Shown here one piece after another: positions 10,784-44,554 of a DNA stretch of 46,166 nucleotides. Both the position numbers and the translations under genes were made by a program. The DNA lies in the IMG/VR virus record IMGVR_UViG_3300037491_000056, positions 1 to 46,166 of that record. The stretch is one strand, 5' to 3'. Each line of letters opens with the position of its first letter. Position 1 is the first letter of the stretch. The stretch is from a virus. The notes below the pieces were generated by a model that was not told the DNA's origin, did not search any database, and saw only the letters and a list, made by a program, of their open reading frames with translations.

Positions 10784-10908
10784 GAACACTCTCCGGTAGG
10801 GCGCGAGCCCGGACGGGCTTGGCCGCATGGCTGGTGTCTATCATTCTGCACGCAACGCGGCTCAGCCTGACACGGCCCGTCGAGCATTTCAATCTCAGGA
10901 TCGCCCTT

Positions 10909-11040
10909 GCCGTGGCTCTCGCTCGTCACCCAGGCGACCCGAACTTCGAGCGCGATAAGCACCACGAGATCGAATACGAGTTCTCCGGCCGCTGGTTCCA
11001 CGCGGACCGCAGCAAGCGCGGCGCTTACGCGAATTATTGA
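10909..11040 (+). pseudogene. 3' remnant of the 9339 gene, truncated and frameshifted
   Basis: From 10909 the sequence matches codons of the intact gene at 9339-9551, including DPNFERDKHHEIEYEF and the final GAYANY plus TGA. It has lost the N-terminal half and one base near 10930. It diverges at a few codons (Tyr to His, Gly to Ser). No start codon is in frame. Downstream of its stop comes repeat R1 and the next phage gene, so this was probably the original location of the gene before the lectin arrived. Confidence 0.75.
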
Positions 11041-11060
11041 TCGGCGGCTTGGCCGCCGAG

Positions 11061-11139
11061 TGAATAGTGAGTAGCGAATAGCGAGTAGTGAAGCGAGCGC
11101 GCTGAACTCGCTATTCGCTATTCGCTATTCGCTACTCGC
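11061..11139. repeat. R1 hairpin repeat of 7-nt units
   Basis: The left arm is built of heptamers such as TGAATAG, TGAGTAG, CGAATAG and CGAGTAG; the right arm is CTATTCG, CTACTCG and similar. Between them are about 20 nt. The arms can form a long hairpin. It separates the 3' remnant at 10909 from the gene at 11173. Copies occur at 16474, 20488, 24108, 30544 and 37519. Confidence 0.85.
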
Positions 11140-11172
11140 GGCTTCCGCAATTCGTTCATCAAGGATCCACCC

Positions 11173-14457: not shown

Positions 14458-14538
14458 GTAGGGCGCAATAGCGCAGCGTATTGCGCCGTTCCGCAACGAG
14501 CCGGCGCATTACGCGGCTTCGCCGCTAATGCGCCCTAC
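14458..14538. repeat. R2 repeat after the portal gene
   Basis: Starts GTAGGGCGCAATAGCGCAGC, ends AATGCGCCCTACATCC. The portal's TAG stop is followed by CCCG and this repeat; GTAGCCCG at the stop is a short R3-like start, so R3 and R2 are fused here. Confidence 0.8.
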
Positions 14539-16205: not shown

Positions 16206-16568
16206 TTACCGATGCCTGGTCCGCGGCCGCACCGTGATGCGCACGCCGCGGTAGGGCCAATAGGTGGGCCAGCCCGAAACGGGCGAATAGACGTGCACGG
16301 CGTGCGGCGCGCATTCCCCGTTTGGCGCGCAGACCGGGAAGGCATAGCGGCCGGGCTGCTTCCAGCTGAGATCATACGGCCCGTAATCGTGGGTATAGTC
16401 GCAGTAGGGCGCGCAATCGACGGCCGCGGCGGGCTGGGCGGCGAAGATGCCCGCGATGGCAGCCGCAATCGAGATAGCGAATAGCGAATAGTGAGTAGCG
16501 AATAGCGAAACCCAGCTCTTTCTATTCGCTATTCGCCATTCGCTATTCGCCCCTTTCCGTTCGATCAC
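16206..16568 (-). CDS. Small secreted cysteine-containing protein whose N-terminus is repeat-encoded
   Basis: A 120-residue frame from a GTG at 16568 (or from a later start). The first 30 residues, including NSEWRIANRKSW and LFATHYSLFAIS, are encoded by repeat R1 at 16474-16550. They run directly into a hydrophobic AAAIAGIFAAQPAAA, so the repeat supplies part of the signal peptide. The mature part has CAPYCDYTHDYGPYD, a further CAPNGEC pair and many aromatics. It resembles small secreted proteins seen in rhizobia. The true start is uncertain: translation may begin at an ATG/GTG within the repeat, or the original start may have been displaced. Confidence 0.55.
   Translation of the reverse strand: MIERKGANSEWRIANRKSWVSLFATHYSLFAISIAAAIAGIFAAQPAAAVDCAPYCDYTHDYGPYDLSWKQPGRYAFPVCAPNGECAPHAVHVYSPVSGWPTYWPYRGVRITVRPRTRHR
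16474..16550. repeat. R1 hairpin repeat inside the 5' end of the 16206 gene
   Basis: Heptamers ATAGCGA / GAATAG run to 16508, then the complementary CTATTCG units 16521-16550. On the minus strand it is translated into the N-terminus of the 16206 gene. Confidence 0.8.
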
Positions 16569-19368: not shown

Positions 19369-20517
19369 ATGGCCGCCGGCATCACCGGCCTGACCCAGAC
19401 GGCCGTTGCCGCGCTCGTCCCGAGCGCGAGCGAGCCGGTCCTGGAGTCGAAGTGGCACCAGCCGTTTTCGGAGCCGGTGCGCCAGAGGATCGCGCCGCAG
19501 CTCGCCGTCGCGCTGATCGCGTCGGGGCTGACCTACGTCGAAGCGCCGCCGTTCGCCGAGACCGTCACCGAAGATCGGTGGCATCAGGCATGGTCGGAGC
19601 CCGTGCGGGTTCGCCCGGCGCTGCCGGCGGGCGAACAGCACGTCATCGCGTTCGAGCCGGCGCCGATCGTCTCGATCGGCTGGTATGCGGCGCTCGCCGA
19701 ACCGGTGCGGCTCAAGCCGGGGCTGCCGGCCGCGTTGCAGCAGTTTCTCGCGCCCGATCCGTTCCCGAAGGTCTCGTTCTCCTGGTGGAACTGGCTCGCC
19801 GAGCCGGTGCGGGTCCGGCCCGCATTGCCCGCGGGCGAGCAGCAGGTCTCGCCCTTCGACGAGGACGTCGTCTTCGTCGATCGGTGGTTCCAGCCGCTTT
19901 CGGAACCGGCCCGCGTCCGCCCTGCGGTGCTCGTTCCCGCCACCGAGCAGCAGTTCGAGCCGTTCGACGAAGACATCATCTTCGCCGACCGCTGGTTCGC
20001 CTGGTGGTCGGAGCCGGTGCGGGTCAAGCCGGCGCTCGGCGCCGGCAGTCACCAGGTCCTCGCGTTCGATTCGCTGCCGCTGCCGTTTCTGGGCGGGGGC
20101 GGTGGCTGGTATCTGCCGGATCCGACGCGCCCGCCGGCAGATGAAGAGCCGCCGCAGCGTAAGGTCAAGAAACCGGGACAGCCGCGCCAAATCGAGCCGG
20201 CGACCGCGCCGCCGACGTTTGCCGACGTCATCGGGTCGCAGCAGCCGGCGCGGCTTGCCGACGTGCTCGGCTCGGCCTTCGTGCCGCAGCTGGCTCAGCT
20301 GCGGCCGCCGGCGCTTGACCTCTACCGGCCTCCGGCGCGGCCGGTTGCGCGCACACCGTTGGCGCCGGCCGCGGCGACGGTCGACGCCATCGCCGACCAC
20401 GTCGACGCCATGGATGCGATGGAGGCCTTGCAGGCCCTCGACGAACTCGACCGGCAGGAGCGCGAAGCCGCGATCGCGTTTTTGGCGCGAATAGCGAATA
20501 GCGAAGAGGGCGAGTAG
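19369..20517 (+). CDS. Phage repeat protein with six SEPVR motifs
   Basis: A 382-residue protein. Six times, about every 40 residues, a motif W-x-x-x-x-(S/A)-E-P-(V/A)-R-x-(R/K)-P occurs (residues ~30-240): WHQPFSEPVRQR, WHQAWSEPVRVRPAL, WYAALAEPVRLKPGL, WWNWLAEPVRVRPAL, WFQPLSEPARVRPAV, WFAWWSEPVRVKPAL. The C-terminal third is proline-rich, then helical. The last residues (FLARIANSEEGE) are coded by repeat R1, in which the TAG stop also lies. It starts 3 nt after the fibre gene, so the two are coupled. A scaffold or stalk-like function is conceivable; the repeat is not one I recognise. Confidence 0.65.
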   Translation: MAAGITGLTQTAVAALVPSASEPVLESKWHQPFSEPVRQRIAPQLAVALIASGLTYVEAPPFAETVTEDRWHQAWSEPVRVRPALPAGEQHVIAFEPAPIVSIGWYAALAEPVRLKPGLPAALQQFLAPDPFPKVSFSWWNWLAEPVRVRPALPAGEQQVSPFDEDVVFVDRWFQPLSEPARVRPAVLVPATEQQFEPFDEDIIFADRWFAWWSEPVRVKPALGAGSHQVLAFDSLPLPFLGGGGGWYLPDPTRPPADEEPPQRKVKKPGQPRQIEPATAPPTFADVIGSQQPARLADVLGSAFVPQLAQLRPPALDLYRPPARPVARTPLAPAAATVDAIADHVDAMDAMEALQALDELDRQEREAAIAFLARIANSEEGE

Positions 20518-20592
20518 CGAGTAGCGAATAGCGAATAGGGAAGCGCGACCGTGGCACCTCTTTCTATTCGCTATTCGCCATTCGCTATTCGC
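20488..20592. repeat. R1 hairpin repeat at the end of the SEPVR gene
   Basis: Heptamers of CGAATAG/CGAGTAG type from 20488, a 25-nt centre, then CTATTCG units to 20592. It supplies the last codons and TAG stop (20515-20517) of the preceding gene. Confidence 0.85.
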
Positions 20593-20603
20593 GGGCGCAG
20601 CCC

Positions 20604-20992: not shown

Positions 20993-21114
20993 GTAGCCCG
21001 GATGGAGCGCCGCAGGCGATCGTAGCCCGGATGGAGCGCGAAGCGCGTAATCCGGGACGGCCGTCCCCGCATTCCGCTTCGCTCCATGCGGGCTACACGC
21101 TCCATGCGGGCTAC
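20993..21114. repeat. R3 repeat (GTAGCCCG family)
   Basis: Starts GTAGCCCGGATGGAGCG, with the complement CGCTCCATGCGGGCTAC at the right end and extra internal copies. Other copies at 31123-31197 and 44478-44554. Confidence 0.85.
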
Positions 21115-24086: not shown

Positions 24087-24107
24087 ACGGCGGCCTGCGG
24101 CCGCCGA

Positions 24108-24182
24108 GCGAATAGTGAGTAGCGAATAGCGAATAGAAAGAGCAGCGAACCACTATTCGCTACTCGCTATTCGCTATTCGCG
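24108..24182. repeat. R1 hairpin repeat after the decoration-like gene
   Basis: GCGAATAGTGAGTAGCGAAT is repeated in the left arm, and CTATTCG/CTACTCG units in the right arm, with a short AT-poor centre between. Confidence 0.85.
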
Positions 24183-24198
24183 CTCCAAAGGAGCCCAA

Positions 24199-24411
24199 AT
24201 GTTTGGCCGCCTGCGCAACGTTCCGGAGCGGATCGCGCCCGCGAACCCGCTGCCCGACAACCGCAAGATCCCCGCGACCGGCGACGCCGGCCGCGACGGC
24301 TACACCTGCCTCTCCCGCGCCGATCGCGAGACCGGCGTGCGCCCGCCCGCCGGCGGGGGCACCCGCGTCGACTGGCCGCCGGAGAGCGACGCGGAAGATT
24401 ATTCGCCGTAG
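24199..24411 (+). CDS. Small phage protein (70 residues)
   Basis: Starts MFGRLRNVPERIAPANPLPD with AAAGGAG before the ATG. It is basic, proline-rich at the C-terminus and probably disordered. Its TAG stop (24409-24411) is the first TAG of repeat R2. Position in the head gene cluster suggests a minor virion or head-completion role. No family recognised. Confidence 0.5.
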   Translation: MFGRLRNVPERIAPANPLPDNRKIPATGDAGRDGYTCLSRADRETGVRPPAGGGTRVDWPPESDAEDYSP

Positions 24412-24484
24412 GGCGCATTAGCGGCGAAGCCGCGTAATGCGCCGCCAACCGGCGCAATACGGCCTTCGGCCTATTGCGCCCTAC
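24408..24484. repeat. R2 repeat; supplies stop of 24199 gene
   Basis: Starts GTAGGGCGCATTAGCGGCGA, ends TATTGCGCCCTAC. Bases 24409-24411 are the upstream gene's TAG. The second half is a stem-loop of the same family in inverted order. Confidence 0.85.
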
Positions 24485-24499
24485 ATCAGGAGAATCCCC

Positions 24500-24823
24500 A
24501 TGGCAAAATCCCCAGGCCGCTTCGGCAAGTTCACCGAGGCCGAGGTCAAGGCCGGCACCGACGCCGGCACCGGCCGCGGCAATCCCAAGCTGCACGAGAG
24601 TTCGGGCATCGTCGATCTGCCCGGCTACCGCACCCAGACCATCAAGCGCGCCTACCCGCTCGACACCTCCGACATGGAGCTGCCGAACGAGACCGGCATG
24701 GCGGGGTTCGGCGGCTCGGAGACCAACCTCAAGCACTCGCTCACCGGCCCCTCCGCGGTGCAGGACAACCGCGGCGACGGCGGCGGCGACGGCAACGAGT
24801 CGCCCTATATCCCCAATCACTGA
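24500..24823 (+). CDS. Small head-joining-like protein; intact copy of a gene with two 3' remnants
   Basis: A 107-residue protein starting MAKSPGRFGKFTEAEVKAGT; CAGGAGA precedes the ATG. It is glycine/aspartate-rich and ends with GDGGGDGNESPYIPNH, a calcium-loop-like acidic tail. No known domain. Two further copies of its 3' part follow: 26542-26847 (101 codons, no start) and 30426-30521 (31 codons). They frame the HipA-like and kinase/TPR modules. Its own role in the virion is unknown; it may be a joining or tail component. Confidence 0.65.
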   Translation: MAKSPGRFGKFTEAEVKAGTDAGTGRGNPKLHESSGIVDLPGYRTQTIKRAYPLDTSDMELPNETGMAGFGGSETNLKHSLTGPSAVQDNRGDGGGDGNESPYIPNH

Positions 24824-25127
24824 ACCGGCAGCCCGACGGCTTTCCCTCCCCCTTGCGGGGAGGGAGGGCGCGCCCGAAGCGAAGCCGAGGCCGGCCGGGG
24901 TAGGGGTCGTAGTGTACGGCAGTATCTCCACCCGGCTCGCTTCGCTCGCCACCCTCGCCGCGCGCTGGGTGCTGGCCGAAATCGGCCGAGTGAACGCAAG
25001 CGGAACGGATTTTTTCTAGGGACCGCTTTCCACAGGCTACCTTGGTCTTGGACAACCCTTAGATATGAGTTGTGGTCGGTACAATTGTATGGTTTAGTGC
25101 CCAAGGTGGCTGGGGGCAAAGCGCGGC
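24824..25127. other. Gene-free stretch with an R4-like palindrome
   Basis: The R4-like palindrome CTTTCCCTCCCCCTTGCGGG is at 24838-24905. The rest of the stretch (to the GTG at 25128) has no strong coding frame. GGGGGCAAAGC at 25111-25122 is a possible ribosome site for the HipA-like gene. Confidence 0.5.
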
Positions 25128-25877
25128 GTGACGTTTGTTTTCTTCGATCCATCGACAGGGCCGCGGGCAAAGGACTGGTTCGACAATCCGATCCAGACGA
25201 TCGCGATTACGAGAAACGGCGACTTCTCGAATAGCGCCGATGGGTCCTGCCCTGTAAAGCTTGCCGACGGCAGCATCGCCTACGCGAAGCCGCGACAAGC
25301 AAACAAACTGGTCATCGCGCGGGAGAAGATTGCTTCCGATCTGGCGCGCTTGCTGTTCCTTCCCGTGGCGCCTGTCGTTATTCGCAGTGGCGAACCGGGG
25401 GTGCCACCTTGGGACCATGATACGGCCTTATCCTTGGCGTGCTTGGAGTCCGCGAGGCTTTGGGATGCCGGTGGAGTTACGCACATCGACAAGGCGGCCC
25501 CTGCGCTCGAGGCCATGCGGGTGTTCTGGACATGGCTCGGAGATAGTGATCATAATGGCCATGGACAAAACGTCCTCTACGAAATTCAAGGCGACCGTTG
25601 CGCAATCGTCGCAATCGACCATTCACATTCGCTCTGCCATGGCAATCAAAACGACCCTCTTGCCGTTATTGCCAGCGCAGGGTACGCCACGGCCGGCCGC
25701 GCCGATTGCCAGGCCGCCCTTACGGATACCGCAGGCCGGATTCACACCCTAGACTGGCCAACTATCGAAGGGCTGGTGCACCGGCTTGATGGCTTGTTAA
25801 CGACTGAGGAGCAGAACCGCATCAAGCGGATTCTTGATGAGCGCCGAAAGCATCTCAATCGGATGCTGGGCATTTGA
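25128..25877 (+). CDS. HipA-like kinase domain protein
   Basis: A 249-residue protein from a GTG at 25128. It has the pattern of HipA-type kinases: a lysine near 54 (SIAYAKPRQA), a glutamate in the helix AREKIASDLARLL (about 64-76), the catalytic-loop-like DSDHNGHGQNVLY (139-151), and the metal-binding IDHSHSL (163-169). HipA enzymes phosphorylate partner proteins and arrest growth. The protein is shorter than HipA (about 440 residues) and lacks its N-terminal subdomain 1, so it belongs to the smaller HipA-like group. The next gene begins 10 nt later and may be its partner or target. GC is lower than the phage genes; it is imported cargo. Function is inferred. Confidence 0.7.
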   Translation: MTFVFFDPSTGPRAKDWFDNPIQTIAITRNGDFSNSADGSCPVKLADGSIAYAKPRQANKLVIAREKIASDLARLLFLPVAPVVIRSGEPGVPPWDHDTALSLACLESARLWDAGGVTHIDKAAPALEAMRVFWTWLGDSDHNGHGQNVLYEIQGDRCAIVAIDHSHSLCHGNQNDPLAVIASAGYATAGRADCQAALTDTAGRIHTLDWPTIEGLVHRLDGLLTTEEQNRIKRILDERRKHLNRMLGI

Positions 25878-25887
25878 GGAGCGGACG

Positions 25888-26412
25888 ATGCCAGACCATA
25901 GACGAGCCCTGTGGCGCATCGAGTTTCGAACGAAGCTAACCCGGGCGGATTCGCTTGTCATTCCGGTCGCGTATTTACTGGACGCGCAGTGGAAGCAAGG
26001 TAACATGCGTTGGCTCGGACTTCTTTTCCGAAAACGGTTGACGCCTGCTGAACTCGACCAGGTAAACACGGCTACATGGCCTGAGCTCACAGAAATCGAG
26101 CCGTTCATGAAACGGCTGTTTGAAGACGCTTGGCGAATGGTCGATCGTGCGGCGGCTGATCTCGGCGCGGCCGCGCTGGCGGCGCGCTATTCGCATTACA
26201 GCTCGCTGCTATTCGCGCGCGCCGGCGAGGGACCCGAGAAACTCATAGACGAGCCAGTCAAGGCATTCTCGCAGCTGTACAGTCACCTACTTGGTCTGCG
26301 AGAACAACTGGCCCCCGTCGTGACGGCTCCCGTCGTTCGTCTGCCGCGGTTTAGGAAGGCTGCTCCCGCGGCGACGAGAGCCGACGTCGCGCTCCTCAAC
26401 GAGGCTGCTTAA
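25888..26412 (+). CDS. Partner protein of the HipA-like kinase, unknown function
   Basis: A 174-residue protein starting MPDHRRALWRIEFRTKLTRA; GAGGAG lies 5-7 nt before the ATG and its start is 10 nt after the kinase stop, so an operon is clear. The first 60 residues look like a small beta-rich fold (SLVIPVAYLLDAQ, MRWLGLLFRKRL), followed by helices. HipA-like kinases are often accompanied by small DUF3037-like proteins; this one has a similar role by position, but I cannot confirm that family. The C-terminus is alanine-rich and basic. It may be the antidote, substrate or regulator of the kinase. Confidence 0.6.
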   Translation: MPDHRRALWRIEFRTKLTRADSLVIPVAYLLDAQWKQGNMRWLGLLFRKRLTPAELDQVNTATWPELTEIEPFMKRLFEDAWRMVDRAAADLGAAALAARYSHYSSLLFARAGEGPEKLIDEPVKAFSQLYSHLLGLREQLAPVVTAPVVRLPRFRKAAPAATRADVALLNEAA

Positions 26413-26541
26413 AGGAGAACAGTGCGTAACCCGCACTGTTCATCCGACCGTCGGCGGTTCGCCCGCCCCGCGGAGTTGGGCTCGCGAGAGCAAAATCGGC
26501 CACTAGGCTTTGCCTCCTGAATTACCCGGAATTGCCGACGG

Positions 26542-26847
26542 CGCTTCGGCAAGTTCACCGAGGCCGAGGTCAAGGCCGGCACCGACGCCGGCACCGGCCG
26601 CGGCAATCCCAAGCTGCACGAGAGTTCGGGCATCGTCGATCTGCCCGGCTACCGCACCCAGACCATCAAGCGCGCCTACCCGCTCGACACCTCCGACATG
26701 GAGCTGCCGAACGAGACCGGCATGGCCGGGTTCGGCGGCTCGGAGGCCAATTTCAAGCACTCGCTCACCGGTGCCTCCGCGGTCCAGGACAACCGCGGCG
26801 ACGGCGGCGGCGACGGCAACGAGAGCCCGTACATCCCGAACCACTGA
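26542..26847 (+). pseudogene. Start-less copy of the 24500 gene
   Basis: Codons 7-107 of the 24500 gene are repeated without indels at about 95 percent nucleotide identity, starting CGCTTCGGCAAGTTCACCGA and keeping the TGA. A TGA lies eight codons upstream of the homology and there is no usable start codon in frame. It sits immediately after the HipA-like module. It carries a few substitutions (Thr to Ala, Asn-Leu to Asn-Phe, Pro to Ala) relative to the intact copy. Confidence 0.85.
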
Positions 26848-27220
26848 GGCGCGCTGGCGCGCCTCAGTGTCCCGGGCGCAGCGCAGCGCGAGGGTCCCCG
26901 TTGCGCTTTTGCGCAACGGGGTGCCCGTAGCGGTGCGATGCAGACCCGGAACCTCCCGCAGTACCACGGCTTACCCTTAGCCCTTGTGGGGAGGGGTGGG
27001 CGCAACTGAGTTGGGCGGGGTACAGTGTGCCCCCAGCACGCCACAAGGATAGGCCACTAAGCGAGCGAGCCAATTACTCTCCAGCAATGCGAAAAATGAA
27101 GCGCCTCGATAACAACTGTTATGCCTGTTGACGACCGTCCCGTCGCAATGAAATCTGCCGTTGTGCCGCGATTTGGACTGATCTATATGGCTTGGGCTCA
27201 GCGATAGTTGGGGCCAGTAG
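26848..27220. other. Gene-free leader of the kinase operon, with a palindrome
   Basis: The palindromic element 26864-26952 (CCCGGGCGCAGCGCAGCG, then GGTGCGATGCAGACCCGG) follows the start-less copy. The rest to 27220 is less GC-rich and may hold the kinase promoter; TTGACG at 27128 is a possible -35 but no convincing -10 is seen. GGGG at about 27209 is the only candidate ribosome site. Confidence 0.45.
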
Positions 27221-28321
27221 ATGTCCAGTAATTACTATCCCGAAGACAAGCCGGATAAGGATCCGCTCCTCGGGGTCCGTCTCAATGACGGGTGGATAAT
27301 TGTCGAAAAGGCCGTCAGGCTTGCGAAGCAAACTGGCGGCGCATTTTCATATGGGTATATCGCAAGCCGCGGGAGTGAACGAGCCTTTATGAAGGCGTAT
27401 GACTTTGAGCGAGCATTTAGTGCCGACGATCCCATGAAGGAATTGGAAAAACTCGTCAAAAGCTACAATTTCGAGCGCGACCTGTTCGATATATGTTCAG
27501 AATATAAAATGACTCGAATCGTCAAAGTTCTTTCTCACGGGGTAGTGACGCATTCTGGAGTACCGTTCGGTCGACTCTATTACTTGCTATTTGAGCTCGC
27601 CGAGAGTGACGCAAGACTTTTCTTGTCGACGCAGCAAGACTGCACTGTGGCTTGGCGGGTTAGATGTTTGCAACACATCGCAACCGCTCTTCAGCAGCTG
27701 CATTTTCGTGGCATTTATCACCAGGATACAAAACCATCGAACGTCCTGATCTTCGGTGAGAGATCAACCAGCAAGCTTGGTGATCTGGGGCGCGCACACT
27801 GTTCAACCAAACAGGCGCCGCACGATACGGCAAAGGTGCCGGGCGCATTCAGATATGCACCTCCAGAATTGCTCTATGGGTCACCAGTGCTCGATGCACG
27901 GCAGCAACGAGGGGCAACGGATCTGTATCTGTTTGGCAGCATGATTTACTTCGTAATGATGGGAGTTCCGATAACGTCTGAATTGATGAACAAGCTTGCA
28001 CCTGAGCATAAGCCAATTTATTTCGGAGGGCGCGATCTGGGAGTGTTTTTTCGCGACGTATTGCCGTTCCTCATCGATGCGCACTCTGAGATTGCTCGAT
28101 TATTTGAAGCCGAGCTCCTGCCAAAGGTTCTGGACGCGGATCTTGTGGCACGCATCGTTATGCTTCTTCGTTATGCAACCGCTCCTGATCCTTTCTTGCG
28201 CGGGCACCCTGCCGCGCGTCGAGTTAAACACGGTGATCCCTATGACCTTCAGCGCTTCATATCGGAGCTGAATGTAATAGCTCGCAGACTGGAGATCAGA
28301 CCAGGAAGAATCAATGCATGA
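27221..28321 (+). CDS. Hanks-type Ser/Thr protein kinase (two-gene system with TPR protein)
   Basis: A 366-residue protein with a full kinase fold: a loop GGAFSYG (39-45), an ATP lysine in AFMKAYD (Lys58), a C-helix glutamate in NFERD (Glu85), the catalytic loop YHQDTKPSNVL (166-176; HQD in place of HRD; Asp169, Lys171, Asn174), DLG in place of DFG (188-190), PPEL (214-217) and the F-helix Asp234 (ATDLYLFGS). All key residues are present, so it is predicted active. No transmembrane segment or sensor domain. GC is much lower than the phage genes. The next gene overlaps it by 8 nt, so both are made together. A stress-response or anti-phage role is possible (other bacterial kinases such as Stk2 do so), but here it is inference. 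Confidence 0.85.
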   Translation: MSSNYYPEDKPDKDPLLGVRLNDGWIIVEKAVRLAKQTGGAFSYGYIASRGSERAFMKAYDFERAFSADDPMKELEKLVKSYNFERDLFDICSEYKMTRIVKVLSHGVVTHSGVPFGRLYYLLFELAESDARLFLSTQQDCTVAWRVRCLQHIATALQQLHFRGIYHQDTKPSNVLIFGERSTSKLGDLGRAHCSTKQAPHDTAKVPGAFRYAPPELLYGSPVLDARQQRGATDLYLFGSMIYFVMMGVPITSELMNKLAPEHKPIYFGGRDLGVFFRDVLPFLIDAHSEIARLFEAELLPKVLDADLVARIVMLLRYATAPDPFLRGHPAARRVKHGDPYDLQRFISELNVIARRLEIRPGRINA

Positions 28322-29906
28322 GATTCCGAAAGATGATGATCGTAAGGTCATCCCGCGATGGCGTCAGCTTCGACGGACACCTGCGACCGAGCTCCGTCTC
28401 GCGCGTGTGCATCGAAGCGTGGACGAAATTGAGATGGAATTTCGAAGGGTGATAGCGGATTGGTCGTCACACAGGACAATTGAAAATGCATCCGAGGTTT
28501 TATTTGTTGGCGCACTGGGAGAGAAATCAGATTTAGTCGAAGATGCGGCGCGGCTGATTATCGAGAGCGATGAGGCGTCACATAACCTAAAGCGGCTTGC
28601 GATTTCCCTTATAAACGAGGAGACGCAGCATGCTGGCGCGCCTGAAGAGACCTTCGATTTGGAAAGCGACTATTCTTTTGAAATAAGGATGATCAAGAGA
28701 AAACTTGAGGAAAATCCGAGGAACGCTGTGTTGCATGTCGAAGTTGCGCGACTGTACGCCTCACAGGGACTGACTAAGCAAGCTGCTTCCCATTTACGTG
28801 TTGCGCTAGAATTGGCACCGACACATAGGTTTGTGCTGCGTTCTGCGGCCCGCTTTTATGTTCACCGAGACGAATTGAAAAGGTCATGGAATATCCTTAA
28901 GTCGGCGGCCGAACACGATCCCTGGGTGGCAGCGGCATTTGTCTCGGTTGCAGACCTCGGCGATCTCGAGGTTCCCGGGATTAAGAAGTTCCGTGAGTTG
29001 ATGGCAGCAAGCGCTGATCCTGGCCAGATAACGGAGTTGGCTGCTGCCCTGGGAACGTTGGAATTAAAAAGTGGGGGAATAAAGAAGGCCCGCAAACTAT
29101 TCAGGGTAAGCGCAAGAGCGCCGAACGAAAACGTTGTGGCCCAGCTCTTTTGGCTGTCGCAACGCTATGGCGTGGCGTTTGACGTGACTCTATTGGAGTC
29201 TGAAAAGACTCACGAAGCACGCGCCGCGCATGCTGCGGTGGCCGAGAGCTGGATGGATGCAATTAAGTCGTGCGCTCAATGGTTTGAGGATGAACCATTT
29301 TCTGTCAGGCCCGCGCAAAAGGGCAGTTTCCTTGCCTGTGAAATGTTGAGGGACTATAAGCTCGGTCAAAATTTCAGTAATCGGGGGTTGCGTGCAAATC
29401 CGAAGGATATAACCTTGCTAAATAATTTGGTGTTTGCCCTCATCATGGATGATAAATTAAGCGAAGCCGCCAGTCATTTAGAAAGAGCCAAGCGCTTGGT
29501 CGTTGACGATAGAGACAAGCTTTTTCTGACAGCGACTGAGGGTCTGCTGCACTATCGACAGGGCCGAATCGCAGACGGGGTGCGCCATTATATGCACGTC
29601 CTCGGAGAGGCGTTGAGTATGAAGAGCCGCTATCTTATTCAGCTTGCCTACCTTCACTTTTGTTACGAGGAGGTTCGCATCGGGCACACGCCACCACTTG
29701 GAATCTCCGATGAGCAAATTAGAAAGGAGTTTGACAACGCAAAGGATGTTTCGATTAGAGAGATATATAACCAAACTCTATTACCGCTACTGGAGGCCAG
29801 GCGCAAGTACGGCCTACAAGAGAAGGGATATCGGCTTGGCGAGGATATATTTGAAAATCCAGCATTGGAGCCGCCGCCCACGCTGGGCGGGTTAGTGGGC
29901 TCGTAG
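28314..29906 (+). CDS. TPR-repeat protein coupled to the kinase
   Basis: A 530-residue, entirely helical protein. The ATG lies 8 nt inside the kinase gene with AGGAAGAATC before it, so translation is coupled. From about residue 125 several TPR-like pairs appear, for example NPRNAVLHVEVARLYASQGL with TKQAASHLRVALELAPTHRF, and later ANPKDITLLNNLVFALIMDD with KLSEAASHLERAKRL. The first 110 residues are helical but not clearly TPR. No enzyme domain or membrane segment. The kinase may use it as a scaffold, sensor or substrate. Codon use is as atypical as in the kinase gene. The end lies in an AT-poor stretch before a decayed sequence. Confidence 0.8.
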   Translation: MHEIPKDDDRKVIPRWRQLRRTPATELRLARVHRSVDEIEMEFRRVIADWSSHRTIENASEVLFVGALGEKSDLVEDAARLIIESDEASHNLKRLAISLINEETQHAGAPEETFDLESDYSFEIRMIKRKLEENPRNAVLHVEVARLYASQGLTKQAASHLRVALELAPTHRFVLRSAARFYVHRDELKRSWNILKSAAEHDPWVAAAFVSVADLGDLEVPGIKKFRELMAASADPGQITELAAALGTLELKSGGIKKARKLFRVSARAPNENVVAQLFWLSQRYGVAFDVTLLESEKTHEARAAHAAVAESWMDAIKSCAQWFEDEPFSVRPAQKGSFLACEMLRDYKLGQNFSNRGLRANPKDITLLNNLVFALIMDDKLSEAASHLERAKRLVVDDRDKLFLTATEGLLHYRQGRIADGVRHYMHVLGEALSMKSRYLIQLAYLHFCYEEVRIGHTPPLGISDEQIRKEFDNAKDVSIREIYNQTLLPLLEARRKYGLQEKGYRLGEDIFENPALEPPPTLGGLVGS

Positions 29907-30059
29907 AGTTCTGAGCGCACTTTTGTTGGGGAGTTCCCCAGCGCCACTCGGGCGCAGCTTCTCAACGATATTGCGCACGAAGCGGAGGCAAGGTTTGCTA
30001 GCAAAATTAAGCGAAGCTGAGATTAAGTGAAAGAGCCCTGGCCGGACTGTATTTCGGAT

Positions 30060-30310
30060 GCAGCGGTCGTTTGCTACCTGATCTCCCTGGCGCTTGCCGG
30101 GGATTGAGTATGCGCACGAGAGTCCGCCCGACCAGGGTTGGTTTATCCTGGCATTTGGAATGTTTGCATTCCCCACGTCAGGAGGGCTGGCGTCGTTGGC
30201 ATGGTGCGCAAAGCCGTTTGCCATCCTCGCCTATATTTTTTCCAAGACCCGCGAGCATGGCGTTGCCTTGAGCTGTCCTCGGCAGCAGTCGTCACTGATT
30301 CCTGCTGGCG
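30060..30310 (+). pseudogene. Eroded membrane-protein fragment (tentative)
   Basis: Three reading frames together look like one small membrane protein: frame one gives AAVVCYLISLALAG, the next GWFILAFGMFAFPTSGGLAS and ILAYIFSKTREHGVALSC, and the third VTDSCWRSMAPSG. Hydrophobic segments in successive frames suggest two frameshifts, but without homologues this is weak. The stretch 29907-30425 otherwise has no gene. Confidence 0.35.
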
Positions 30311-30425
30311 CTCCATGGCGCCATCGGGTTCGAGCGATCACGGCGCCGGGCGGAACCATAGTGAGCGAAAACGCTTCGACGGCGCGGGTTGCGGCGGCAA
30401 CGGCCCCGGTTCGCTACCATCGTCC

Positions 30426-30521
30426 CTCAAGCACTCGCTCACCGGCCCCTCCGCGGTCCAGGACAACCGCGGCGACGGCGGCGGCGACGGCAACGAGAGC
30501 CCGTACATTCCGAACCACTGA
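30426..30521 (+). pseudogene. Shortest 3' remnant of the 24500 gene
   Basis: The last 31 codons of the 24500 gene (LKHSLTGPSAVQDNRGDGGG and on to ESPYIPNH) plus TGA are repeated a third time. It shares codon choices with the 26542 copy (AGCCCGTAC) and others with the intact copy (GGCCCC). It is followed by repeat R1 and the next phage gene, as in an undisturbed operon. Confidence 0.85.
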
Positions 30522-30543
30522 GGCGGCGGCTTCGCCGCCGCCG

Positions 30544-30623
30544 GCGAATAGCGAGTAGCGAATAGCGAGTAGTGACGCGCGCTCGCTGTTCTTTCTATTC
30601 GCTATTCGCCATTCGCTATTCGC
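30544..30623. repeat. R1 hairpin repeat before the 30641 gene
   Basis: Heptamers GCGAATA / GCGAGTA on the left, CTATTCG units on the right to 30623. Spaced by about 20 nt. AAGGAG of the next gene's ribosome site begins about 7 nt after it. Confidence 0.85.
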
Positions 30624-30640
30624 GGTTTGAAGGAGCTCCG

Positions 30641-31126
30641 ATGCCCAACGACGTTCATCCCCTGCGCCTCGACCGCTCGCGCTATCACTCGAGCGAGCAC
30701 GGCGACCATCCCAACCGCGCCCGCTTCTGGCAGGACGGCCTGCCGTTCGACGCCCACGGTGAGCTGTGCACGGAACTGTGCAGCGCCGACCAGATGGCGG
30801 CCGCGGACGCCAAGGCGCCGCGGGCGCCAGATGTCGGACATCAGATGTCAGATGTCGGAGATCAGATGTCGGGAAGCAACGATCCGACCTCTGACATCCG
30901 ACCTCTGTCATCTGAGGTCAATCTCGAGCTCTGGGCCAAGGGCGAAGCCCGCTACGTGCCGGCCAAGGTCTTCGCCGCCATCCGCGAGCGCTACAACAAG
31001 TCGGTGACGACCTTCGCCGACGCCATCGAGTTCCTGGTCAATGACGCGAAGCTGATCCCGGCGAGCGAGGCGTCGAAGCAGCTGCTCGCCGGCGGCGGGA
31101 CGGCACCTGTGCGCGAAGAGGCGTAG
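30641..31126 (+). CDS. Phage protein with in-frame palindromic insertion
   Basis: A 161-residue protein starting MPNDVHPLRLDRSRYHSSEH; AAGGAG precedes the ATG. Both halves look phage-encoded (FWQDGLPFDAHGELCTELCS; VNLELWAKGEARYVPAKVFA and following helical segments). Between them, residues about 64-93 (PDVGHQMSDVGDQMSGSNDP onwards) are a translated inverted repeat at 30829-30919. The stop TAG (31124-31126) is the TAG of repeat R3. The function is unknown; its place before the gp4-like gene suggests a minor tail or head-completion protein. Confidence 0.55.
   Translation: MPNDVHPLRLDRSRYHSSEHGDHPNRARFWQDGLPFDAHGELCTELCSADQMAAADAKAPRAPDVGHQMSDVGDQMSGSNDPTSDIRPLSSEVNLELWAKGEARYVPAKVFAAIRERYNKSVTTFADAIEFLVNDAKLIPASEASKQLLAGGGTAPVREEA
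30829..30919. repeat. Inverted repeat inserted in the 30641 gene
   Basis: Words AGATGTCGGACATCAGATGT on the left and ACATCCGACCTCTGTCATCT on the right are near complements and are read in frame. Similar GACATC/GATGTC hairpins are common in rhizobial intergenic DNA. Its length lets the host frame continue. Confidence 0.65.
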
Positions 31127-31197
31127 CCCGGATGGAGCGCGAAGCGCGTAATCCGGGGCGGCCGTTCCCGCATTCCGCTCCGCTCCATGCGGGCTAC
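31123..31197. repeat. R3 repeat; supplies stop of 30641 gene
   Basis: Starts GTAGCCCGGATGGAGCG, ends CTCCATGCGGGCTAC. Bases 31124-31126 are the stop of the upstream gene. Confidence 0.85.
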
Positions 31198-31211: not shown

Positions 31212-32120
31212 ATGACCTACGCCATGACGTACACGAGCCTGGTGGCCGACAAGAACACCGCCGGCTCGATCGCCCGCTGGGTGAACTATTCCAAGCTCGA
31301 CGCCGACCAAGTGCTCCAGGAGGCGCAGAGCCTGCTCTATTCCATGCTGCGCACCCGCGAGATGCGCGCGCACTTCAACTTCGACCTGGGCGTGGGCGCG
31401 TCGCAGGTCGCCTTGCCGGCCGGCTTCCTCGATCCGATCGGCAAGATTTCCATGCTCGGCACCGGCGCCAAGATCGAGCAGCGCTACCCCAACTTCATCC
31501 AGCGCCGGCGCACCTATACCGAGACGACCGGCAGCCTCGGGCCCAATCCGTTCACCACCGCAGCGGGCTCGACCCTCGTCACCGTCGCGCTCGCGAACCA
31601 CGGCTTCTCGCAAGGGTCGACGTTCTTCACCGCCGGCGCGACCGCCTTCAACGGCGTGACCATCGCCGGCACCTTCGACGTGGTGGCGATCGTCGACGCC
31701 AACGATTTCGCCATCGACGTCACCCCGCTCGGCGCGCCGCCGTCCGCGAGCGGGGCGGGCGGCGGGACCGCCGTCACCTATATCTGCGACAACCTCGTCC
31801 AGGGCACGCCGATCTACTGGGGCGTGTGGAACGAGACGATCTTCTTCGACGTGGCCTTTGCCCAGCAGACCAACTGCAATCTGCAGTACTTCCAATCGCT
31901 GCCGATCCTGTCGGCGGCGAACCCGACCAACTTCCTCACCAACCGCTACCCGCACCTGCTGCGCAAGGCCTGCACCGCGCAGGCCTGGGACTTCATGCGC
32001 AACGACACCGAATACCAGAAGGACGTGACCGCGCTCTCGGCCCTCGTCGAGCAGACAAACGCCGAGGCCGACCTGATGTACCGCGGCGCCGTGTTCGACA
32101 CGTACCTGCACGATGAGTAG
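31212..32120 (+). CDS. P22-gp4-like head/tail adaptor (tail accessory protein)
   Basis: A 302-residue protein starting MTYAMTYTSLVADKNTAGSI. The first 110 residues are helical (SIARWVNYSKLDADQVLQEA, LLYSMLRTREMRAHFN), as in the P22 gp4/T7 gp11-type adaptor that sits between portal and tail. Residues about 111-190 form a beta-rich insert: NPFTTAAGSTLVTVALANHG, DVVAIVDANDFAIDV. An insert of the same type occurs in the gene at 35574. After it the helical fold resumes (YQKDVTALSALVEQTNAEAD). The TAG stop (32118-32120) belongs to repeat R2. The family is given by order and pattern, not by a diagnostic motif. Confidence 0.65.
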   Translation: MTYAMTYTSLVADKNTAGSIARWVNYSKLDADQVLQEAQSLLYSMLRTREMRAHFNFDLGVGASQVALPAGFLDPIGKISMLGTGAKIEQRYPNFIQRRRTYTETTGSLGPNPFTTAAGSTLVTVALANHGFSQGSTFFTAGATAFNGVTIAGTFDVVAIVDANDFAIDVTPLGAPPSASGAGGGTAVTYICDNLVQGTPIYWGVWNETIFFDVAFAQQTNCNLQYFQSLPILSAANPTNFLTNRYPHLLRKACTAQAWDFMRNDTEYQKDVTALSALVEQTNAEADLMYRGAVFDTYLHDE

Positions 32121-32196
32121 GGCGCATTAGCGCCGCAGGCGCGTAATGCGCCGACATGCGTCACGGCGCATTACGGCTTCGCCTAATGCGCCCTAC
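32117..32196. repeat. R2 repeat; supplies stop of 31212 gene
   Basis: Starts GTAGGGCGCATTAGCGCCGC, ends TAATGCGCCCTACGAGG. The upstream gene stops on its TAG. Confidence 0.85.
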
Positions 32197-32207
32197 GAGG
32201 ATCCCCC

Positions 32208-34052
32208 ATGGCGGATACTTACACCTCGACCCTCGGCACCATCGTGATGGGCATCGGGGGCGACAACAACACCTGGGGCACGAATCTCAACAACGGCGTC
32301 TTCCAGATCCTCGAGGACGCGATCGCCAACCCGACGACCATCGCGGTCGGCACCGGCGGCACCACCGATCTGTCGGGCTCGCCGCCGCCCGCGGGACCGA
32401 GCCAGGTTCGGTTCGCCCAGCTCGTCATCACCGGCGGTCCGCTCACCTCCAACGCGACCATCATCGTCCCGGCGCTCAACAAGAGCTGGATCGTCATCAA
32501 CGATGTGACCCTGAACGGGTTCAGCGTGTTCATGAAGACGCCGGGCGGAACCCCGGCGCTGATCCCGACCAACGTCACCTCCCAGGTCATCTGCGGCACG
32601 CAGGTCAACGTCGGCCCCTTCAACTGGGGGCAGGTGCAGATGCCGGACGGCACGGCGGCCGCGCCGAGCTACAGCTTCGGTAACGAGACCGGCTCCGGCT
32701 GGCGCCGCGCCGGCACCCAGGACATGCGCCTGTCGATCGCCGGCGCCGACGTGCTGCAGGTGACCGGGCCTGGGGCGGGCACGCCGAGCGTCGTCAACGT
32801 GCTCTCGCCGAACGCGTTGGAGGTCAACGGCGTCTCCGTCATCCAGGCGTGGGTTGCGGCCGGCGGCACCGCCGACGCCATCACCGCGACCTTCAACCCG
32901 GCGGTCACCGCGCTCACCGACGGGCTCATTGTCGGCGTGCGCGCCGGCGCTGCGAACGCCACGACGACGCCCACCTTCGCGCCGAACGGGCTGACCGCCC
33001 ACACGATCACCAAATCGGGCGGCACCGCGCTGGTGCCCGGCGACATCGCCGGCGCGCTCGCCGAACTGCTGCTGCGCTATAACCTGGCGAACACGCGTTG
33101 GGAGCTGCTCAATCCCGTCTATCCGGTGCAGCCGGCCGCCGTCCCGCCGCAGGGGCGCCTGACGCTCGTGAGCGGCACGCCGGTGATGAACGCCGACGCG
33201 ATCGGCGCGACGGCGGTCTATTACACGCCGTCCGACGCCGGGAATCTCTGCCCGGTCTACAACGGCAGCGTCTTCATCAACGAAGCGTTCTCCGAGCAGA
33301 CGCTCACCTTGGTGAGCAATCACCTCGCGAGCACGATCTACGACGTGTTCGCCTTCTTGAACGCCGGCGCATTCACGATCGGCACCGGGCCGGCGTGGGC
33401 GAACTCGGCCGCGGGTGCCGGCTCGCGCGGCACCGGCGCCGGCACGACCCAGCTCGCACGCGTCGGCGGCCTCCTCACCAACGCGGTGCAGATCACCGCG
33501 CGCAACGGATCGACCACCTATACGGTCCCGGCCAACCAAGGCACTTATCTCGGCTCGATCTTCATCGACGCCGCCGCCGGACAGGTCACCTGCCACTTCG
33601 GTTTCGGCACGTCGCGCAAGTTCGGGGTGTGGAACGCGTTCAACCGCGCGCCGATCGCGCTGCGCGCCGGGGCCGCTGGCACCGTCTCGATCCCGCAGCA
33701 ATCCAGCCTCGGCATTTGGGCCGCGAACGTCAGCAACACGGTGTTCACCGGCCTCGCCGAGGAGATGTTCGACAACAGCGCGCTGCTGAGCGGAGCGAAT
33801 GTCAACAATTCAAGTGCTGGACCTTCCAGTGCGGTTGGATGGAACGCGACGAACGCTGCATCGGGCTTCGGTGGACAGGGTGTGGCCGCCGCCGGCGGCA
33901 ATGCGCTGTCCTGCACGATGACGGCACGTTACGTCGCGCCACCGGCGCTCGGCATCAATACGGCGAATGGTCTTGCGAACGTCCCGGCCGGTGGCTGGAA
34001 CACGCAATCAGGCGAACTCGGCAACTTGCTGGTCTCCGCTTGGCGGGGATAA
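32208..34052 (+). CDS. Tail fibre-like phage protein
   Basis: A 614-residue protein starting MADTYTSTLGTIVMGIGGDN. The N-terminus (NNTWGTNLNNGVFQILEDAI) has the WGxxLN-type pattern of tail-fibre attachment domains. It is otherwise rich in Thr/Ala/Gly/Asn with repeating beta segments: IIVPALNKSWIVINDVTLNG, then NPAVTALTDGLIVGVRAGAA, GLTAHTITKSGGTALVP. It is probably a host-range fibre or spike. Its last about 120 nt are read through on the other strand by a methyltransferase gene (33929-34750), which indicates cargo landed right at its end. AGGATCCCCC precedes the ATG. Confidence 0.7.
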   Translation: MADTYTSTLGTIVMGIGGDNNTWGTNLNNGVFQILEDAIANPTTIAVGTGGTTDLSGSPPPAGPSQVRFAQLVITGGPLTSNATIIVPALNKSWIVINDVTLNGFSVFMKTPGGTPALIPTNVTSQVICGTQVNVGPFNWGQVQMPDGTAAAPSYSFGNETGSGWRRAGTQDMRLSIAGADVLQVTGPGAGTPSVVNVLSPNALEVNGVSVIQAWVAAGGTADAITATFNPAVTALTDGLIVGVRAGAANATTTPTFAPNGLTAHTITKSGGTALVPGDIAGALAELLLRYNLANTRWELLNPVYPVQPAAVPPQGRLTLVSGTPVMNADAIGATAVYYTPSDAGNLCPVYNGSVFINEAFSEQTLTLVSNHLASTIYDVFAFLNAGAFTIGTGPAWANSAAGAGSRGTGAGTTQLARVGGLLTNAVQITARNGSTTYTVPANQGTYLGSIFIDAAAGQVTCHFGFGTSRKFGVWNAFNRAPIALRAGAAGTVSIPQQSSLGIWAANVSNTVFTGLAEEMFDNSALLSGANVNNSSAGPSSAVGWNATNAASGFGGQGVAAAGGNALSCTMTARYVAPPALGINTANGLANVPAGGWNTQSGELGNLLVSAWRG

Positions 34053-37406: not shown

Positions 37407-37519
37407 GGCGCATTAGCGGCCGATCGGCCGCGTAATGCGCCGCAAGCGATCCGTCGTCGAGCGCAGTCCGCGACGGATCGCCAGAAAACGGCGCAATACG
37501 CTGCGCTATTGCGCCCTAC
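37403..37519. repeat. R2 repeat; supplies stop of 35574 gene
   Basis: Starts GTAGGGCGCATTAGCGGCCG, ends TATTGCGCCCTAC, with an extra GATCCGTC/GACGGATC stem in the middle. The TAG at 37404-37406 is the upstream gene's stop. R1 follows directly. Confidence 0.85.
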
Positions 37520-37621
37520 GAATAGCGGATAGCGAATAGCGAATAGAAAGAAGCGCAGCGCGCCCGCTTCACTATTCGCTACTCGCTATTCGCTACTCAC
37601 TGCTCACTACTCGCTATTCGC
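37519..37621. repeat. R1 hairpin repeat between tail gene and bacterial block
   Basis: GAATAGCGGATAGCGAATAG on the left and ACTATTCGCTACTCGCTATT on the right, with a central AAAGAAGCGCAGCGCGCCCG. It is fused to the end of R2. Confidence 0.85.
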
Positions 37622-37627
37622 TCCCTC

Positions 37628-40558: not shown

Positions 40559-43360
40559 ATGACTCTTCCCGTCACGCTTTTCGACACATCAAACAATCCC
40601 ATCGGATCGTTCTCGACTATCCAGGCCGCCGTGAACGCGGCAGCCAACGGCGACACCATTCAAGTCGCCCCCGGCACCTACCAGGAACAGGTCACCGTCA
40701 ACGGCTTGACGAACCTCACGATCGAGGGCACGGGCGCAGACCCGAGCCAGACGGTCATTCTTTCACCTGACTACACCAGTCTCGTTTCCAACATACAGAA
40801 CCCCGGCGAGAATCATACCTTCACCGATGCGCTGGTCGGCGCCGAGAACGGCGCCAGCGTCACGGTCAGTAATCTGACGGTCAATGGAAACAATCAAGGC
40901 GTGATCTACGCCCTCGGTGCCAACGGCGGCGGCGACCTTATCGGCATCGAGGGGGTGAACTCGAGCCTCAGTGTCAGCAACGTCCACGTCACCGGCACCG
41001 AGGACGTCGAGTCGGGAGTGCTGCAAGGCGGCCAGGGCAACGCGGGCATCATCGTTAACGACACAAACAGCTCGACGCAGACGTTCACGATAAGCGGCTC
41101 GACGGTCGACAACTTCCAGAGAGACGGTATCCGGATGGAAGGGGCGGGGCTGACCGCCAACGTGAACAATAACACCGTCACCGGGGTTGGTGCGAATCCC
41201 ACCAATCTTTCGCAGAACCTCATCGAGTTAGAACTCGGCGCAACCGGCTCGATCACACAGAACCAAGTTACCGGGGTCAGCGATGCAAATTTTGGCTCGA
41301 ACGGCGTTATCATATTCCAGTCCGGCAGCGGAGTGACGGTCAGCAACAATACCGTGACAGGCCTTGCCGGCAACGTGAATAGCGCGGGTATTTATTTCCT
41401 GGGCGTCGACGCGCCGACCGCCGAGGGCAACACCATAACCGATCAAGGTTTTGCTCTCGCCGATGACGGCTCGTTCGGCGCATTCAACACAGCGCTCGTC
41501 CAGGACAACAACACTTACACCGGGAATGCGCTGAATTATTTTTTCTTCCCCGACCCCACGTCAACGAACGCCTGGACGGTCACCGGCACCGGTGGACCGG
41601 ACGATCTGGAAGGCAGCACCAACAACGACGTATTCACGGTGATGGGCGGCGCCCCCAACGGCAATACGTTTGTCGGCAACGGCGGCGTCGATACCGTCCA
41701 AGGTTACGGCGCGGGCTACCACGTCGCCATTCAGACCAACCAATGGGTGGTCACCAACGGCGCGGTCACCGACAGGCTGACCGGCATCGAGAGGGTCGTC
41801 ATCAACGGCCAGACCTACGACCTCGTGGACAATCAGGGACAGGACGTGGGCGGCTTCCAGACCCTGCAGAGCGCCGTCAATGCCGCCCAGCCCGGCGATA
41901 TCGTCGTCACGGACATCGGGTCGGCCAGCGTCACCGTCGGGGTCGACAACCTCACCTTCGAGCCGCTGCAGGCCGCCACCGGCATCACGCTGACGCTCGC
42001 AAGCACCGGCGTGCACACAATCATGCTCGCCGACTACGCGCCGGGCCAGGGTGTGCCCGTGACGGTTCACGGCAACGACCTCGGCGACACATTCCAGGGC
42101 AACGACGGCGGGGATACGTTCACCGGCGGCGCCGGCAACGACACGATCAGCGGCGGAGCCGGGGTCGACACGCTCTCGGGCGGCGCCGGCGCCAACGTCT
42201 TCAGGTCCACGGCCCTGGACCTCAACGGCGACACGATCACCGATCTCGAGCACGGCGACGAGATCGTCATCACCGACGCCGACCCGGCGCATTTCTCGTT
42301 CCACTTCTCCGGCACGACCTTGAGCTTCGACCCGAACACGGCGGCAAGCGCCACCTTTGACACGGTCACGCTTGCGAATGCGCCGACGCTGCCTTTCTCG
42401 GTAACGGCCGATCCGGTGAGTGGCGTCGACCTCCGCCTCAGAGCCTTGCACCCGAACGACTTCAACGGGGACGGGATCTCCGATCTGCTGTGGCGGTCCC
42501 AACAGACCAAGGTGGCGACGGGCGAAGTCGATACCTGGCTGATCAATAATGGGCAGATGACCGGAGGCGCGGCGTTAAGCACGCTGTCGACTGCCTGGCA
42601 GTTCGCCGGGACCGGCGACTTCACCGGCAACGGCACCAGCGACGTGCTGTGGCAGAACGTCCCGTCCGGCGAGGTCGATACCTGGTTGATCACCAACGGC
42701 CAACTCACCGGCGGCAGCGCGATCGGCCACGCGTCGAGCGTGTGGCAGCCGCTGGGAACCGGCGATTTCAACGCCGACGGCACCAGCGACATTCTGTGGC
42801 GCAACACCTCGACCGGTGAGGTCGACACCTGGCTTATGAACAATGGCCAGATGACCGGAGGCGCCGCGTTGGGCACCGTGTCGAGCGCCTGGCAGTTCGC
42901 GGGCATCGGCGACTTCAACAATGACGGCACCAGCGACGTGCTATGGCACAACACCACGACCGGCGAGGTCGATACCTGGCTGATCAGCAACGACCAGGTC
43001 AACGGCGGCACGGCGATCGGCCACGCGTCGAGCGTGTGGCAGTCGCTCGGAACCGGTGATTTCAACGGCGACGGCACCAGCGACATTCTATGGCGCAACA
43101 CCTCGACCGGCGAGGTCGACACTTGGCTCATGACCAACGGCCAGATGACCGGAGGCACCGCGTTGGGCACCATGTCGAGCGCGTGGCAGCTTGCGGGCAT
43201 CGGCGACCTCACTGGCAACGGCACCAGCGATGTCGTGTGGCGCAACACCACGACCGGTCAGGTTGAGACCTGGCTGATCGCCAACGACCATGTCACCGGC
43301 GGCAGCGTGATTGGCACGGTGTCGAGCATCTGGCAGCCCCAGGTGATACATACCAGCTAG
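40559..43360 (+). CDS. Large surface/secreted protein: beta-helix, RTX and FG-GAP repeats
   Basis: A 933-residue protein. Residues 1-330 are a right-handed parallel beta-helix (FSTIQAAVNAAANGDTIQVA, then short repeating NNTVTG turns), as in pectate-lyase-like adhesins. RTX nonapeptides GGAGNDTISGGAGVDTLSGG lie near 516-550, typical of calcium-binding type I secretion substrates. From about 630 to the end six FG-GAP/VCBS-like repeats of about 50 residues recur: DFNADGTSDILWRNTSTGEV, DTWLMNNGQMTGG and so on. No N-terminal signal peptide, which fits type I secretion. It belongs to the host, not the phage, and may act in adhesion or as a carbohydrate-active surface protein. The C-terminal secretion signal is not visible. 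Confidence 0.8.
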   Translation: MTLPVTLFDTSNNPIGSFSTIQAAVNAAANGDTIQVAPGTYQEQVTVNGLTNLTIEGTGADPSQTVILSPDYTSLVSNIQNPGENHTFTDALVGAENGASVTVSNLTVNGNNQGVIYALGANGGGDLIGIEGVNSSLSVSNVHVTGTEDVESGVLQGGQGNAGIIVNDTNSSTQTFTISGSTVDNFQRDGIRMEGAGLTANVNNNTVTGVGANPTNLSQNLIELELGATGSITQNQVTGVSDANFGSNGVIIFQSGSGVTVSNNTVTGLAGNVNSAGIYFLGVDAPTAEGNTITDQGFALADDGSFGAFNTALVQDNNTYTGNALNYFFFPDPTSTNAWTVTGTGGPDDLEGSTNNDVFTVMGGAPNGNTFVGNGGVDTVQGYGAGYHVAIQTNQWVVTNGAVTDRLTGIERVVINGQTYDLVDNQGQDVGGFQTLQSAVNAAQPGDIVVTDIGSASVTVGVDNLTFEPLQAATGITLTLASTGVHTIMLADYAPGQGVPVTVHGNDLGDTFQGNDGGDTFTGGAGNDTISGGAGVDTLSGGAGANVFRSTALDLNGDTITDLEHGDEIVITDADPAHFSFHFSGTTLSFDPNTAASATFDTVTLANAPTLPFSVTADPVSGVDLRLRALHPNDFNGDGISDLLWRSQQTKVATGEVDTWLINNGQMTGGAALSTLSTAWQFAGTGDFTGNGTSDVLWQNVPSGEVDTWLITNGQLTGGSAIGHASSVWQPLGTGDFNADGTSDILWRNTSTGEVDTWLMNNGQMTGGAALGTVSSAWQFAGIGDFNNDGTSDVLWHNTTTGEVDTWLISNDQVNGGTAIGHASSVWQSLGTGDFNGDGTSDILWRNTSTGEVDTWLMTNGQMTGGTALGTMSSAWQLAGIGDLTGNGTSDVVWRNTTTGQVETWLIANDHVTGGSVIGTVSSIWQPQVIHTS

Positions 43361-44481: not shown

Positions 44482-44554
44482 CCCGCATGGAGCGCAGCGG
44501 AATGCGGGGAAAGCCGCCCCGGATTGCGCGGCTGCGCCGCTCCATCCGGGCTAC
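44478..44554. repeat. R3 repeat; supplies stop of GNAT-like gene
   Basis: Starts GTAGCCCGCATGGAGCG, ends CTCCATCCGGGCTAC. Bases 44479-44481 are the gene's TAG. A short R1-like CTATTCGCTATTCGC follows at 44563-44580. Confidence 0.85.

Follow-up and report, generated by a model that had tools for sequence, protein, structure and literature searches.

Partial 3' copies of core genes behind cargo modules suggest one-sided homologous recombination in a soil phage

In a short-tailed soil phage, a small conserved gene is followed by two successive cargo modules, each closed by a 5'-truncated copy of that same gene. With moderate confidence, and from sequence comparison, we propose that such remnants are the scars left when cargo was gained by recombination, homologous on one side of the cargo and nonhomologous on the other. 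The novelty of this reading would lie in cargo gain that leaves core-gene tails behind as scars, the type of recombination itself having been proposed before.

RESULTS

The phage and its overlapping contig. The window, by which we mean the whole stretch of DNA that was analyzed, is a metagenomic record of 46,166 bases from a virus collection (IMGVR_UViG_3300037491_000056). Judging from its capsid, portal, adaptor, and terminase genes, it belongs to the SU10-like short-tailed phages. A contig of 59,388 bp (IMGVR_UViG_3300043159_000017) overlaps the window at 99.99% identity and has the same arrangement of the conserved gene (here SG) and cargo. This contig also encodes a repressor containing an S24 peptidase domain, and a temperate lifestyle is therefore probable. 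Profile searches found no integrase in either cargo module, in agreement with the preliminary description of this DNA, and none was recognized on the 59-kb contig, which may be incomplete.

Three copies of SG. In the gene block that extends from capsid to adaptor, SG is located between genes of 70 and 161 aa. Alignment and a protein search confirmed the described layout of one intact gene and two 3' copies (Table 1): against the whole 46-kb record, the SG protein matched exactly three places (E = 1.5e-71, 8e-66, and 2e-17), so chance resemblance is excluded. The reported identity of about 95% between the first two copies was measured as 95.4% at the nucleotide level, with zero indels. The HipA-like pair (25128 to 26412) occupies the first gap and the kinase/TPR pair (27221 to 29906) the second, and the phage order resumes after the shortest copy, all as first described.

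Table 1. Coordinates of SG, its partial copies, the cargo genes, and the second site in the window
Feature	Position	Strand	Remarks
Intact phage gene, 70 aa	9339-9551	+	Found by self-comparison of the window; empty sites in L096 to L099
Cargo, 410-aa lectin-like protein with DUF346 repeats	9596-10828	-	
3' remnant of the 9339 gene, about 44 codons to the stop	10909-11040	+	91% identical; frame broken near the left end
SG copy 1, intact, 107 aa, small conserved phage gene	24500-24823	+	Single copy at the same position in 27 relatives
SG copy 1 tail, 14 positions unlike copy 2	24703-24823	+	Left (homologous) junction would lie at or before 24703
Cargo 1 gene 1, putative HipA-like kinase, 249 aa	25128-25877	+	Weak HipA_2 match; DHNGHGQN and IDHS motifs by eye
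Cargo 1 gene 2, no known family	25888-26412	+	ATG at 25888; TTG-started frame opens at 25834
SG copy 2, 3' remnant, codons 7 to 107 plus stop	26542-26847	+	No start codon at the 5' end
Cargo 2 gene 1, protein kinase PDC-M71A	27221-28321	+	PDLC04780 E = 7e-94; Pkinase E = 1e-14
Cargo 2 gene 2, TPR protein PDC-M71B	28314-29906	+	PDLC04781 E = 2e-111
SG copy 3, 3' remnant, last 31 codons plus stop	30426-30521	+	
Next conserved phage gene, 161 aa	30641-31126	+	Directly after SG in cargo-free relatives

The differences between copies are unevenly placed. The first 185 nt of copy 2 match copy 1 without a single difference (0/185), and the remaining 121 nt contain 14 differences; copy 3, compared over its 96 nt, departs from copy 2 at 4 positions and from copy 1 at 9. 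In close relatives, 9 of the 23 variable SG sites fall within the first 185 nt; on that basis, all 14 differences would be confined to the last part with a probability of about 0.001 (0.004 when adjacent changes are counted once). Since the heads of copies 1 and 2 are identical and their tails differ, the SG tail, not the 5' part, looks like the exchanged segment; both heads look resident, with tails from different lineages. The earlier idea that the 5' part is replaced each time, as in elements that rebuild the gene they enter, does not fit this pattern. In this donor-free comparison, the hybrid pattern of copies 1 and 2 is consistent with one junction inside shared homology, as in homology-facilitated illegitimate recombination. 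On the other side, the same kind of comparison finds that the cargo-to-remnant junctions join unlike sequence at variable positions of the gene.

Relatives at the SG site. A comparison with relatives lacking cargo had been suggested as a check. SG was present once, with no extra copies, in all 27 related loci in which the search detected it (overlapping contig excluded; a few of the 27 form near-identical pairs). Two loci about 95% identical to the window (L005 and L006) have SG, a short spacer, and the 161-aa gene, with neither cargo nor remnant, and in eleven close SG loci only a short spacer separates SG from the next phage gene. The sequence of the spacer 3' of SG is not conserved. Extra copies are thus tied to cargo, as had been supposed, SG being single in the 27 loci and the same architecture recurring at other genes. 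One locus, L030, has an SG-like gene (spotted by reading open reading frames), behind which come different cargo and then the 161-aa gene, leaving no space for a remnant; its cargo, in the same spacer between SG and the 161-aa gene (L030:12202-13674), encodes a TPR protein of 490 aa that weakly matches glycosyltransferase 9. Because L030 carries cargo without a remnant, remnants accompany cargo but are not obligatory.

More distant relatives (L026 to L045) have no remnants near the capsid gene, and their terminase is single copy where present. In one of them, L044, the 152-aa gene after the capsid gene is tandemly duplicated (L044:6026-7001), with both copies open and about 72% identical in nucleotides. 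Vibrio phages with related capsids (L104 to L106) were considered for comparison and set aside; their structural regions are compact, lack comparable cargo, and provide no test.

Cargo in the SG gaps. The third-codon-position GC content (GC3) of the cargo genes is 0.52 to 0.66, against 0.92 to 0.94 for most phage genes (0.83 for the gene at 30641), and the cargo is therefore foreign by composition. Morons are foreign genes added to phage genomes between conserved genes; likewise, the genes of foreign composition here lie between genes that are adjacent in relatives, where the sites are empty. The first gene of cargo 1 scored 15.4 bits (E = 0.011) against HipA_2 (PF20613), below the Pfam cut-off of 27, and had no matches in PADLOC, NCBIfam, plasmid records, or phage records. 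For the second gene, profile searches of Pfam, PADLOC, and NCBIfam found no family.

The two genes of cargo 2 correspond to PDC-M71, a candidate phage defense pair in PADLOC-DB 2.0. Both match near full length and in order, M71A adjoining M71B with an 8-nt overlap; the window pair differs in being phage borne and in lying inside the virion gene block. A literature search under the name PDC-M71 found no papers. A PDC-M71-like two-gene order also occurs on Rhizobium etli and Arthrobacter plasmids, with 34 to 38% identity in the kinase. On the R. etli plasmid pRetIE4771b (L107:2180-9601), genes for a site-specific integrase, TniQ, and a recombinase flank the pair. We found no donor phage with the same cargo: IMG/VR searches with the kinase and the HipA-like protein returned the overlapping contig only, and searches of plasmid and phage records with the HipA-like protein returned nothing. 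Elsewhere in the window, an 861-aa low-GC3 protein encoded after the terminase (4505 to 7090), with weak AAA and HSDR_N matches and assigned to phrog_14719 (function unknown), is another cargo, with no detected remnant.

A second site and terminase remnants. The same architecture recurs in the window at the gene at 9339 (Table 1), and the phage gene order resumes after its remnant. In four relatives (L096 to L099), the 9339-type gene occurs once with the next phage gene directly after it, and the 59,388-bp contig shows both places as well. Compared with the intact gene, the remnant is divergent over its left 35 nt and nearly identical over its right 107 nt; the divergence is on the left, opposite to the right-side divergence in SG copies 1 and 2.

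Variable DNA behind the terminase gene of L097 and L098 holds two terminase 3' remnants. Remnant A reaches the stop codon and is 85% identical to the phage's own gene over 141 nt, beyond which it is decayed. Remnant B in L097 is nearer to the window terminase than to L097's own gene, which suggests that alleles of different lineages have been mixed at these sites. One terminase remnant is present in L096, whose own terminase lies off the contig. When both ends of 15 core genes were surveyed across 32 loci, the remnants were only C-terminal ends of upstream genes, always on the same strand as the upstream gene; no N-terminal ends of downstream genes occurred as remnants in this survey. The other extra matches were the in-place tandem duplication in L044, repeats within the 161-aa gene, and an apparent remnant in L099 (4905 to 5025), which was dropped because what is repeated there seems to be the end of a short gene on the minus strand. 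The total is six remnants at three genes, not all of them surely independent.

Dispersed repeats. Six spacers of the window (11042 to 11160, 16459 to 16550, 20500 to 20600, 24088 to 24195, 30524 to 30640, and 37510 to 37624) contain palindromes with GCGAATAG/CTATTCGC. Five of these were folded (-53 to -73 kcal/mol; z of -6 to -11), and spacers of related phages hold related copies. We rejected the intergenic GCGAATAG hairpins as cargo boundaries, as they are positioned after remnants and not at cargo edges. Two further intergenic repeat families (24408 to 24504, 32117 to 32212, and 14458 to 14538; 21021 to 21096, 31122 to 31197, and 44477 to 44555) have palindromic parts, measure 76 to 100 nt, and resemble bacterial REP-type elements. 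A repeat containing GCCAAACTGACGCACCCCGTTTGACGG occurs three times near the left end of the window (627 to 746, 766 to 889, and 1200 to 1272) and also in L099. A 933-aa protein with FG-GAP and RTX-type repeats is encoded at 40559 to 43360 and has a tandem internal repeat at about 42516 to 43336.

DISCUSSION

A model of cargo gain. Successive insertions at one site, as originally suggested, are the best reading of the SG region, and the architecture recurs at other genes. In the model that we favor, incoming DNA would bring cargo linked to a related allele of the tail of the upstream gene and would pair with the resident gene, a step supported by the mosaic of copies 1 and 2. A crossover inside the resident gene would yield an intact hybrid gene followed by the cargo. 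The far end of the cargo, which has no homology, would then be joined to another resident genome copy at a random point in the same gene, leaving a 5'-truncated resident tail after the cargo and a whole downstream gene. Repetition at the same gene would stack modules, each closed by a tail remnant; the stacked pattern is what we observe, and its order of assembly is the model's. Selection would retain only those outcomes in which the upstream and downstream genes are both intact. Under this model the pattern of copies 1 and 2 is expected, since both heads would be resident and the tails would come from different lineages. The variable breakpoints and the cargo of L030 would be expected too, because the right junction would be random. 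The single SG copy in the 27 loci, the mixing of terminase alleles, and the low GC3 of the cargo likewise favor the model. Either cargo could have come first; in the simplest reading cargo 2 is the older, because entry would be at the full gene.

Two observations count against the model. The remnant at the 9339 site differs from its gene on the left and not on the right. In addition, the restriction to 3' ends needs selection or a directional process to explain it; the missing 5' remnants of downstream genes may reflect selection against truncated copies that bear a start, or a directional process. We also considered, tentatively and as something rather doubtful, that loading is directional: new modules would always enter via homology to the 3' tail of a core gene, displacing older ones outward, so that remnants would record the order of gain and serve as ready homology arms by which ordinary homologous recombination could move any module between related phages.

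Alternative explanations. A Campbell-type single crossover of circular DNA carrying a fragment of the gene tail plus cargo would also leave an intact gene, cargo, and a truncated tail. It gives the observed order and the direct repeats without an integrase, and it accounts for the fact that only 3' ends of the upstream gene are found. However, it predicts a donor head in copy 2, where 3 to 9 differences in 195 nt would be expected between lineages and none was seen in 185, and it does not provide for the cargo without remnant in L030. We consider it unlikely.

The duplication in L044 lends some plausibility to a different sequence of events, in which a tandem duplication of SG came first and the spacers took up cargo afterward, with loss of the 5' ends of the downstream copies. 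The neighboring gene has indeed been duplicated in this group, but a tandem SG or terminase tail lacking cargo was seen in none of the relatives, and the same series of events would be needed at three genes. The chance that duplication came first seems small.

Selection on the tail itself might produce the 3'-only bias at all sites if the tail held a signal (a promoter, a terminator, or a coupling element) required by the downstream gene, so that only tail-copying insertions survived. Against this, consensus scans for promoters and terminators around the SG copies gave matches near the chance level, the spacer after the gene is not conserved, and L030 manages without a remnant. There is little to recommend this explanation.

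Islands accrete in tandem at gene 3' ends by site-specific recombination, with a fixed att core and an integrase, and the stacked elements are likewise separated by partial 3' copies of the target gene. This was the analogy preferred in the preliminary description. An att site in the gene tail, as in islands at the 3' ends of tRNA and protein genes, would explain why the tail is restored, a remnant is left, and the same gene is used again. The left breakpoints, however, never fall at the same place: they lie at codons 7 and 77 of SG, at about codon 30 of the 70-codon gene, and at about codon 520 of the terminase, so there is no fixed att site; no shared att core was seen at the remnant breakpoints, the modules lack an integrase, and three unrelated genes would have served as sites within one phage group. 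Together with the cargo of L030, this also speaks against integrase-type elements, and we hold site-specific integration to be very improbable.

An assembly chimera of two single-cargo strains joined through the 185-nt identical SG stretch, a run longer than typical assembly word lengths in a metagenomic contig, is highly implausible: the cargo-to-remnant junctions join unlike sequences and so do not stem from repeat collapse, identity runs at other remnants are just 61 to 64 nt, the longer overlapping contig (though perhaps not fully independent) has the same order, and even a true chimera would leave each single cargo with its remnant.

Relation to known systems. The closest parallel to one-sided recombination at a core gene comes from type VI secretion system (T6SS) effector-immunity arrays, for which homology-facilitated illegitimate recombination has been proposed, with stacked modules anchored in a conserved upstream gene (2017, PMC5361080). 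As in our model, the upstream gene is the homologous anchor, the far end is nonhomologous, and older modules are displaced downstream (PMC5361080). In the arrays, an effector domain or gene is what gets displaced, and the immunity genes stay; in the window, the anchor gene is whole, its own tail is left behind, and the cargo is unrelated to it. Rhs C-terminal displacement and orphan modules, as portrayed in that study (Jackson et al. 2009, Koskiniemi et al. 2014, via PMC5361080), similarly combine a constant 5' gene with an exchangeable 3' region and strings of displaced 3' pieces; there the pieces are the functional cargo, while those in the window look like scars of a structural gene.

Where phage mosaics bear traces of homology, these mostly lie on a single side (De Paepe et al. 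2014, PMC3945230), which fits our model. As in phage morons and mosaics generally, genes of foreign composition stand here between conserved virion genes. The window differs in that its cargo is closed by core-gene tail remnants, at several genes. De Paepe et al. also argue that, in phages, illegitimate recombination occurs less often than homologous recombination (PMC3945230), which counts against our model. To call the process undescribed, as was done at first, is too strong given its resemblance to the recombination proposed for T6SS and Rhs arrays, but in the texts searched, phage cargo followed by tail remnants of core genes was not described. The initial interpretation as a whole is partly supported.

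The gain of cargo by phages is usually inferred from end states, the join itself leaving no trace. If the model holds, tail remnants would be a readable scar that marks each gain and hints at the allele of origin and the order of events. Such remnants can be searched for across phage genomes, which would make both the mechanism and the direction of cargo gain testable. In the phage studied here, they accompany a candidate defense pair situated in the virion gene block.
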